Source of the DNA: Williamsoniiplasma somnilux
GTDB taxonomy: Bacteria > Bacillota_I > Bacilli_A > Mycoplasmatales > Mycoplasmataceae
Length of the DNA: 64,000 nt
Assembly: GCF_002804005.1 (NCBI RefSeq)
Contig: NZ_CP024965.1
Location: 620,001-684,000 of the forward strand
Direction: 5' to 3'
Part shown: positions 48,180 through 51,172 of the stretch, piece after piece
Numbering within the stretch: position 1 is the stretch's first letter
Layout of the letters: each line of letters starts with the position of its first letter
Position numbers and translations under genes: made by a program
The notes under the pieces: model-generated
Databases searched by the model: none
What the model saw: the letters and a program-made list of their open reading frames with translations, nothing else
What the model was told of the DNA's origin: nothing

Positions 48180-51002
48180 TTATAGTCAATGTTTGAAAAT
48201 CTTTTTATATCCTACTTTCCCAAATTGAGCCGTCATACAATATCCAGAAATGATTCCAAATGATATTAAAATGAATCAAAGCGAAGGGCTATTCATGCTT
48301 AGTAATCCTCCGATTGGACTATACGGAATTGCATAAGCTAACACAATCATTCCGACCATAGTAACGTTAACTGGTCATGGTGATCTTGATTGTATTAAAG
48401 GAACTTTTTCTGTTCTTAAAATTTGTACAACCATTGCTTGAGTGATTAAACCAATTAAGAACCATGATCCTTGGAATTTAGCGGCTAATTGATTCGCTTG
48501 GTCAACAAATCCGTTATTCATTGCTGAATTGTATTCAGGAATTACATTTAGACCATAACCAACAATTGCAAAAGTTATCACATCAAACATTGAACTTATT
48601 GGTCCAAAAAATAAGACAAACGGAATGATATCATTAGCTTTTCATCTCTGTGGTTTATGAACGAAACTTTCATCAACACGATCCACAGCCATTGCAAATT
48701 GTGATAAATCATAAAATAAATTTTGAAATAAAATTTGCACAGGTAACATTGGCAAGAACGGCAATCATGCAGAAGCAACTATTAACGATAATGTATTACC
48801 AAAATTTGATGAAGTAGTTAGTTTAATGTATTTAAGAATATTTCCAAAAATAGTGCGTCCTTGAATAATTCCTTTTTCTAAAACCAATAATGATTTTTCT
48901 AAAAGAATAATATCAGAAGCATCTTTTGCAATATCAGTTGCATTATTTACCGAAATTCCGACATCAGATTGTCTTAAAACAGGAGCATCATTAATTCCGT
49001 CACCCATATAACCAATAATATGATTATTCTCTTTTAATGTTTTTACAATTTTAACTTTTTGAAGTGGATTTAATTTAACAAAAATGTTGCATTTTTCAAC
49101 TGCTTTTTTTAATTCTTCATCAGACATTTTATCAACATCTACACCGGTTAAAATTCCTCTAATTTCTAAATTAATCATGTTACATACAGCTCTAGTTACT
49201 GATTCATTGTCTCCGGTAATAATTTTTAAGTCAACTCCATATTTTTTTAATAATTTAATCATTTTTGTTGTACTTGGTTTAGGAGTATCTAAAAAAGATG
49301 CAAAACCGAAAAAAATCATTTCTGTTTCATCACTAACAGCAAAGCGTTTTTGTTCATTAGCAATTTCTTTGTAAGCGATTCCTAAAACCCTTTTACCTTG
49401 GCTGTTTATTTTTTCATAATAAGCAATTGCTTGTCTTTTGAATTGTTCATTAATCGGCTGGATTTTGCCTTGATAATAAATTTTGTCACAAGAAGACAAA
49501 ATTTCTTCTGTACTACCTTTAGTGACCATGACTCTTCCGTCATCTTGTGAATCAAAAACAATTGTTAATTTACGACGATTAAAATCAAAGGGAATTTCAT
49601 CAACTTTTTTAAATTCTTTATGAGTATTAAAATTAATATTGTTTTTTGATGCATAGTCAATAATTGCTTTATCCATAGGATTCTTTAAACCAGTTTGAAA
49701 ATATGCGTTCATATATAAATATTCTAAAAGACGGGGATCTACAACTTTATCAGTTGTTAAAAAGTCTATTAATTCTATTTTGTCATTTGTTAATGTCCCT
49801 GTTTTGTCAGTGCATAAAACATCAATCGCTCCTAAAGATTGGATTGCATCCAATTTTTTTACAACAACTTTTTGTTTTGCCATTCTCCCTGCACCATTAG
49901 CAAGGTTTGTGGTTACTATCATCGGTAACATTTCTGGGGTTAATCCAACAGCAACAGCAACAGCAAAAAAGATTGCATTAAATCATGGATTATCTTTTAA
50001 GGTTAAATCAGCAGTTGAACTTAAACCAGCTCAATGAACACCGGCATTTATCAAGTAAACGATAGGCACCATTACCAGCATAAACCCAAGTAAAACATGG
50101 GTAACATTTTTAACTCCTTTGGTGAAACTTCCTTCCGGTCTTTTTTCCATAATTGTTTTAGCAATTGTTGAAAAGTAAGTGTTAGATCCAGTTGCAATGA
50201 CAAAAGCTATAGCAGAACCCGAAACAACACTTGTCCCGATATAGCAAATATTTTGTAAATCTAAAATATTTGTAGTTTCTACTAAATTATTAGCATGCTT
50301 TTCAACAGGTAAAGATTCCCCAGTCAACGAAGATTGGTTAATAAACAAATCTGTAGATTGAATAATTCTTACATCAGCTGGGATCATATCTCCACTTGAT
50401 AAATAAATTAAATCACCAGGTACAATTGTTTTAATGTCAATTTCTTCACCAAGACGCACAAGTTCTACTTGATTGTTTTGATCTACATTTAAGAAATTCA
50501 ATAAATCTTCGTTAGATTTATGACGAATAACATTAGTTGTACTTTGTACTATTGTACTAATTTTTTTAGTTATAAAGTAACTTCTTGCAGATTGAACAAA
50601 TGAAATTGTTCCTGAAAGAATTACCATAATTGTAATAATAATTGCTCCAACGATATCAAAGCTAGTGCGAGTTTCTTCAGTTCCGAACGAATAAGTTGCA
50701 TAAGATGTAAAATAATAAATTGTAATCGCAATAAGAATTAAATTAAAGGGTCCTAAAAAAGCTCTAAAAAATTCTAGACCTCAATTAAAACGCGACTTTT
50801 TCAATTCATTGCGACCATATTTTTCTTCACGTTCAGTGTATTCATCATGTGTCAAACCAAAATGAGTTAGATTAAATTCATGTTTTAACTCATCTTGATT
50901 AAATTTTGAAACTTTTTTAATTAAACCTTCATTGCTAAATCCGTTTTTTCTTTTATTCTTTTGTTTATCTTTGGAAATCAATTTTGATTTGATTTTAATC
51001 AT
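48180..51002 (-). CDS. mgtA: Magnesium-translocating P-type ATPase
   Basis: P3B-type ATPase that imports Mg2+ under limitation. The product has 940 residues. A basic N-terminal tail (about 50 residues), NQSSLTGESLPVEK (actuator), FAVAVAVGLTPEMLPMIVT (M4 with Pro), the phosphorylation site VLCTDKTGTLTND, KGSTEEIL, MGDGINDAPVLRQSDVGISV, and a set of C-terminal helices. The Met start at 51002 has a strong AAGGAGG site eight bases before it. TGA Trp codons occur in membrane parts. A possible leader peptide is encoded upstream. Confidence 0.95.
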
Positions 51003-51007
51003 TTTTT

Positions 51008-51077
51008 CCTCCTTAAGATTAAACAAAGTTAAAAATTAGTTGCTCATAAAAGCGGCATAACTTTTGACATTGTTTAA
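51008..51077 (-). promoter_or_regulatory. Potential hairpin before the mgtA ribosome site
   Basis: TTAAACAA in the mRNA (51077-51070, inside the last codons of the short upstream frame) can pair with TTGTTTAA (51026-51019), which ends five bases before the AAGGAGG of mgtA (51014-51008). A ribosome at the end of the upstream frame would cover the first arm. There is no T tract, so it is more likely an accessibility switch than a terminator. Confidence 0.45.
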
Positions 51078-51137
51078 TAAACTATTTTTACTATAGGGTT
51101 CTGGGTTATCGGACATTGAATTTACTTGTTCAGCCAT
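51036..51137 (-). CDS. Possible 33-residue leader peptide upstream of mgtA
   Basis: Short frame starting at an ATG after AAAGAGGTGATAACTT and ending at TAA 33 bases before the mgtA start. Near the N-terminus it encodes SMSDNPEPYSKN: an acidic, proline-alternating stretch (Asp10-Asn11-Pro12-Glu13-Pro14). Known Mg2+-responsive leader peptides such as E. coli MgtL use such residues to destabilise ribosomes at low Mg2+. A TATAAT (51167-51172) lies about 30 bases upstream, leaving a leader just long enough for this frame. No homologue is known to me, so function is inferred from position and motif. Confidence 0.6.
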   Translation of the reverse strand: MAEQVNSMSDNPEPYSKNSLLNNVKSYAAFMSN

Positions 51138-51166
51138 AAGTTATCACCTCTTTACTTTCTTTAAAA

Positions 51167-51172
51167 ATTATA
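51167..51172 (-). promoter_or_regulatory. -10 element of the mgtA transcript
   Basis: Perfect TATAAT on the minus strand, 29 bases before the leader-peptide ATG. No good -35 is seen at normal spacing, which may mean an activated or weak promoter. Confidence 0.6.

Follow-up and report, generated by a model that had tools for sequence, protein, structure and literature searches.

In translational attenuators of the erm type, a ribosome stalled on the leader re-pairs its arms and frees the downstream ribosome site. Stalling is drug-dependent in those systems and the genes under control are resistance genes; the re-pairing principle would be shared with the mgtA leader described here. The leader of Salmonella mgtQ is a four-arm switch that has been proven by mutation (PMC8092293). 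In MgtL, the mgtA leader peptide of E. coli and Salmonella, an EPDP motif pauses and destabilises ribosomes, EttA relieves this effect, and a shortage of Mg2+ is assumed to cut translation short and to increase mgtA expression (PMC11282234).

The leader analysed here precedes mgtA in Williamsoniiplasma somnilux, within a stretch of 64,000 nucleotides of DNA that was studied as a whole (the window), and by comparison of its parts its anatomy appears closer to Salmonella mgtQ than to MgtL. As in mgtQ, a short frame is combined with stems 1:2 and 3:4 that compete with 2:3, a ribosome on arm 1 would free the ribosome site of a Mg2+ P-type ATPase, and control would act at translation. Unlike mgtQ, whose frame has 8 codons and is intergenic in an operon under PhoP, the frames described here have 21 to 38 codons and lie directly behind the gene's own promoter, in Mollicutes; arm 1 moreover includes the frame's ribosome site, and the likeness is one of arm plan. 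With MgtL the locus shares a putative leader peptide before mgtA and, in the clade of the window, an early E/D-P motif. However, MgtL acts on a Rho-dependent terminator, whereas the pairing at this locus would place control at the ribosome site, and acidic residues are not general. The element is probably a leader-peptide translational attenuator of mgtA, with low cytoplasmic Mg2+ as its likeliest signal.

An earlier note on this DNA had described a short frame upstream of mgtA, and all that it listed is indeed present: the ATG, the AGAGGTG site, 33 codons with a stop, and a gap of 33 bases to mgtA. The features of the locus are the following.

48180..51002, minus strand: mgtA, magnesium-translocating P-type ATPase (TIGR01524, E 1.3e-285)
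51036..51137, minus strand: leader-peptide frame of 33 codons, recognised by its sequence and by a position kept in relatives
51096..51113, minus strand: putative pause or destabilisation motif, Ser9 (TCC) followed by D-N-P-E-P, codons 9-14
51145..51151, minus strand: Shine-Dalgarno AGAGGTG of the leader frame, from sequence
51167..51172, minus strand: TATAAT -10 element, from sequence, with a predicted transcription start at about 51160

The leader frame (51137..51036, minus strand) runs from ATG to TAA through 33 codons and encodes MAEQVNSMSDNPEPYSKNSLLNNVKSYAAFMSN; it stops 33 nt upstream of the mgtA ATG at 51002. The mgtA product matches TIGR01524, the magnesium P-type ATPase family, above the cut-off. 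Since the -10 element and the transcription start are spaced by 6-7 bases in Mesoplasma florum (PMC7745072), the TATAAT places the start at about 51160, 23 nt 5' of the ATG, and the leader is only just long enough to hold the frame, as had been claimed. Judged by its sequence, the frame looks translated and has a ribosome site of its own, as a leader-peptide attenuator would. When the window leader is shuffled by dinucleotides, about 16% of the shuffles contain a frame of 24 codons or more that stops before mgtA, so the window on its own proves nothing; comparable frames appear by chance in 10-24% of shuffles of the leaders tested. It is conservation in relatives that sets the frame above chance.

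Leaders with a frame of 21-38 codons before mgtA number 51 and come from the Spiroplasma/Mesoplasma family (f1) and from Metamycoplasma; nearly all sampled bacteria of the Spiroplasma/Mesoplasma group that have mgtA carry one. Counted by genome, a frame with a Shine-Dalgarno stands at the same place before mgtA in groups g1 (4/4), g2 (1/1), g3 (2/2), g4 (7/7), g9 (4/4), g10 (1/2), g11 (20/20) and g12 (3/3); a frame with a Shine-Dalgarno also precedes mgtA in 9 of the 18 testable Metamycoplasma-type genomes (f7g18), and no similar frame was found before mgtA in f7g24. A -10-like hexamer lies 20-36 nt 5' of the frame's ATG in 51/51 leaders. Of 16 paralogous P-type ATPase loci examined in the same genomes, 13 could be scored and not one is preceded by a leader frame, and among the other genes of the window 1/52 scores, by way of a weaker 20-codon frame. 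The MgtA search of genome contigs returned matches mostly from unrelated phyla. One relative of the window's genus has another P-type ATPase gene immediately upstream of mgtA (G002:C1:79809-82271); the mgtA leader of that genome is also longer, its frame stopping 97 nt before the gene.

At the level of the peptide little is kept. The 33 residues gave only two weak matches besides self against 60 relatives, one of which (G029, E 0.095) sits directly before mgtA in another genus and was the first hint of conservation. Only the first codons of the frame are conserved in sequence, and variation by codon position is even in Mesoplasma (8/7/7), with a slight third-position excess in Spiroplasma (9/9/13). 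This near-even variation indicates that selection at the protein level scarcely acts on the body of the peptide, which fits a leader peptide and not a functional small protein. Of the pattern that the earlier note had proposed to look for upstream of mgtA in relatives, the conserved short frame was found (in the 51 leaders); an acidic-proline cluster is constant in the window's clade and missing from Mesoplasma and from most leaders of Spiroplasma, and synonymous bias is slight or absent. A functional micropeptide comparable to MgtS or MgtR as the product of the frame, with pairing secondary, is extremely improbable: the open frame and its good ribosome site would suit it, but body and length (21-38 codons) are variable, third-position excess is little or none, the 33-codon peptide has no Pfam match, and the 3' part of the frame is accounted for by RNA pairing. 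The functional micropeptide was rejected as a candidate on the codon-position and Pfam results.

Four pairing arms can be drawn across the leader.

51127..51154, minus strand: arm 1, the leader frame's ribosome site with its start and first codons (1:2 duplex -17.2 kcal/mol, window p 0.05)
51048..51083, minus strand: arm 2, the 3' third of the leader frame, of which 51079-51057 pairs with arm 3 (duplex and covariation)
51017..51038, minus strand: arm 3, the stop-codon region and the spacer to the mgtA Shine-Dalgarno (2:3 duplex, compensatory changes in relatives)
50987..51014, minus strand: arm 4, the mgtA Shine-Dalgarno AAGGAGG (51014-51008), start codon (51002) and first codons (3:4 pairing TTTAATC:GATTAAA)

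The hairpin that had been suggested, with one arm in the frame and the other beside the mgtA ribosome site, is borne out: ATTAAACAATG (51078-51068) pairs with CTTTGTTTAAT (51028-51018), and the whole 2:3 duplex reaches -12.7 kcal/mol, which 0.7% of shuffles equal (p 0.007). In the window, 3:4 has -5.5 kcal/mol, not better than shuffles, and the leader folded unmasked already prefers 2:3. As a consequence of the weak 3:4, the case rests on the family and not on one window fold. Folding with and without the ribosome-covered stretches gave the same four-arm plan in most leaders, and the ribosome site of the frame itself serves as arm 1 in every clade. Against dinucleotide shuffles, the 25 representatives have a mean z of -3.5 for 1:2 (p<0.05 in 20/25), -2.8 for 2:3 (17/25) and -1.3 for 3:4 (9/25, above chance family-wide), with the caveats that the representatives share kinship, so that combined p-values are indicative only, and that RNA folding is noisy in AT-rich sequence. 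The stems 1:2 and 3:4 are mutually exclusive with 2:3, as in mgtQ-type attenuators, 3:4 being the weak one in the window. It is scarcely probable that the arrangement is simple translational coupling or re-initiation, in which translation of the leader would raise that of mgtA with no regulation: leader stop codons do lie close, at a median of 39 nt before mgtA, but the distances range from 17 to 98 nt, mgtA has its own Shine-Dalgarno (AAGGAGG in the window), and the alternative helices would be left unexplained.

Compensatory change supports the pairings. In a 14-sequence alignment of Mesoplasma and Spiroplasma, 2:3 has 27 cells changed on both sides, against 12 expected, and the signal is lost on sliding the partners; 1:2 and 3:4 together have 15 double-changed cells against 7, and a one-column slide gives as many. 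A structure-fitted alignment of 23 sequences, which leans towards its model, has changes on both sides in 15/39 pairs, equalled by 0/500 shuffles, and slid partners fail. In the window's clade the core of 2:3 changes from ATTAAACAATG/CTTTGTTTAAT to ATTAAATAATG/AATTATTTAAT, ATTAAACTATG/CATAGTTCAAT and ATTGAGTGAAG/TTTCGTTCAAT, among others, and the arms of each species fit each other better than swapped arms do in all but the trivial permutation. A MAFFT alignment of the more divergent clades yielded little or no common structure; hence the use of per-leader tests and of a covariance model. This model (R1), built from 14 leaders and run over 60 whole genomes at E<1e-3, matched 26 of them, once apiece and always directly before mgtA, including nine divergent genomes outside the model (G019, G033, G036, G072, G074, G077, G079, G081 and G082). 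R1 misses the window's own clade because the leaders there differ too much.

Strong conserved base pairing, together with the even codon-position variation of Mesoplasma and its unselected peptide body, could also come from a new Mg2+ riboswitch, an RNA sensor that works without protein and to which the frame would be irrelevant. This is very unlikely. The frame stays open with a strong Shine-Dalgarno in very divergent leaders, with a shuffle product of 4e-21 over 25 representatives that are related to each other and were picked for having a frame; gaps within the frame are of 3 nt, whereas those of the spacer are of 1 and 2 nt. Arm 1 coincides with the frame's ribosome site throughout, sequence conservation is limited to the first codons, and neither the window leader nor the frame region in the leaders of 12 relatives matches Rfam. 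An M-box or another Rfam RNA was rejected as an identity for the window leader, having given no match.

Returning to the attenuator, we compared the cost of opening the mgtA ribosome site in two states, a ribosome at the early motif and the whole frame covered, shuffling the later frame and the spacer as controls. By folding only, an early pause opens the mgtA start beyond shuffles in 20/23 f1 leaders (p 0.05 or less), with a Fisher p of 7e-14 over all 27 leaders tested; in the window the two values are 2.3 and 5.2 kcal/mol (p 0.05). Within the main subclade of Spiroplasma, 8 bp of 3:4 persist once 2:3 has formed, and opening would therefore be partial. The proposal that the hairpin controls mgtA at translation thus gains strong support from conservation, covariation and the switch test.

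For Metamycoplasma none of four leaders was clearly positive in the 2:3 switch test, and in several it is the conserved S-x-[DE]-R stretch that pairs with arm 3; taken together, these results suggest that the wiring may differ in this group. The S-x-[DE]-R stretch is conserved in L067, L069, L174 and L187-L189, in some along with FS[IV]ST; the FS[IV]ST block mirrors the frame's own ribosome site, and S-x-[DE]-R is complementary to sequence just ahead of the mgtA ribosome site, with which it could pair. Leaders L020 and L023 (genomes G035 and G061) have a frame MVVSGYSERKLSD.. before mgtA with a 1:2 pairing of -28 to -30 kcal/mol and resemble the S-x-E-R leaders of Metamycoplasma.

Our findings allow us to propose how the attenuator may work. 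Transcription would begin just before the short frame, so that a ribosome loads before the rest of the leader exists. A ribosome lingering or aborting on the early codons, which are rich in Pro and Ser and contain TCC (D-N-P-E-P in the window), would occupy arm 1 and leave arm 2 free to capture arm 3, and the mgtA ribosome site would be open (ON). Fast read-through would cover arm 2 and let arm 3 fold onto the mgtA ribosome site and start (3:4), and once ribosomes leave, 1:2 and 3:4 would form (OFF). We infer the translation of the frame, the pausing, its signal and its direction in vivo, Mg2+ being suggested by gene identity alone: pausing or drop-off on the early codons would most likely be caused by low cytoplasmic Mg2+, given that mgtA encodes a Mg2+ importer and that ribosomes are weakened when Mg2+ is scarce.

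The composition of the early codons bears on that signal. In codons 2-14 of the 25 representative leaders, Pro makes up 10.5% (3.2% in window genes) and Ser 19.4% (6.0%), with no enrichment of Asp/Glu (10.8% vs 12.2%). An acidic-proline cluster is found in 10/10 leaders of the window's clade (g1, g3 and g9), in the forms DNPEP, EGPES, DFPDPES, PEPEPGE, DSPES, DDNPES, EDYPHS and DTPDS; it is absent from Mesoplasma and most Spiroplasma leaders (MSIPSQ.., MSIPSV..), and from most of those in g4 and g11. The D/E-P stretch behind the MgtL-like reading put forward in the earlier note is thus constant in the window's clade, whereas Mesoplasma and most Spiroplasma do without it. A general acidic-proline rule was rejected, for want of support outside that clade and of Asp/Glu enrichment. 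With Pro and Ser enriched early and Asp/Glu not, MgtL-like destabilisation may represent a special case of a more general pause signal in the first codons.

The same attenuator could instead answer to a signal other than Mg2+, namely tRNA supply, slow decoding (TCC/CCC by U34-only tRNAs, charged Pro or Ser tRNA) or another stress that slows translation. Among early Ser codons 35% are TCC, compared with 2.4% in window genes, and TCC falls within codons 2-16 in 38/51 leaders. In the window's genome, UCN is read only by tRNA-Ser-UGA and CCN only by tRNA-Pro-UGG, among the 31 of 32 tRNA genes read. In the TCC region, both C positions are paired in only 11/23 aligned leaders, so that pairing alone does not explain the codon, although arm 1 pairing may cause part of the C-bias. 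The controlled gene, however, is a Mg2+ importer, and the clusters of the window's clade are MgtL-like; we regard a signal other than Mg2+ as rather unlikely. In the same genome, ARAGORN reports at L221:1501-1576 a tRNA-Thr with anticodon AGT (A34), besides CGT and TGT genes. A bolder version, which we hold to be doubtful, would make the sensor the slow U34-C3 'superwobble' reading of the conserved TCC/CCC-type codons by a minimal tRNA set, low Mg2+ weakening codon-anticodon contacts, pausing the leader ribosome and turning mgtA on; if so, the Mg2+ gauge would be built on decoding itself.

The attenuator also has a counterpart among the riboswitches. No M-box (RF00380) was matched in the window leader or in the window's whole genome, while control genomes and Spiroplasma platyhelix do match, and none was found in 60 f1 and 134 f7 genomes. 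In f5, that is Spiroplasma platyhelix and relatives, an M-box stands before mgtA (L008:1237-1407, L006:1191-1364, L005:4289-4459 and L007:4307-4475) and the leader frame is absent. This distribution points toward the idea that M-box and leader-peptide control replace each other.

Further leaders were noted in the Spiroplasma group g7, where other conserved frames (MVVSGYSERK.., MLGQQEQSG..) precede some mgtA paralogs; most of the ones tested pair significantly. In L073, L074, L201, L206 and L208, which have several mgtA-like genes, MLGQQEQSG.. or MESRLECPISG.. lies about 210 nt before one paralog, and strong 2:3-type pairing is found in most of these distant frames.

Gene regulation is considered to be sparse in Mollicutes. 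We found no description of such leader control in Mollicutes in the open-access literature, and to that extent the novelty claimed for the locus stands. The putative attenuator precedes mgtA at a constant position in about fifty genomes, which extend from the groups of Mesoplasma and Spiroplasma as far as Metamycoplasma. This suggests that control of Mg2+ uptake through the ribosome has been retained in near-minimal cells, and that an M-box riboswitch and a leader-peptide switch may substitute for each other before the same gene.
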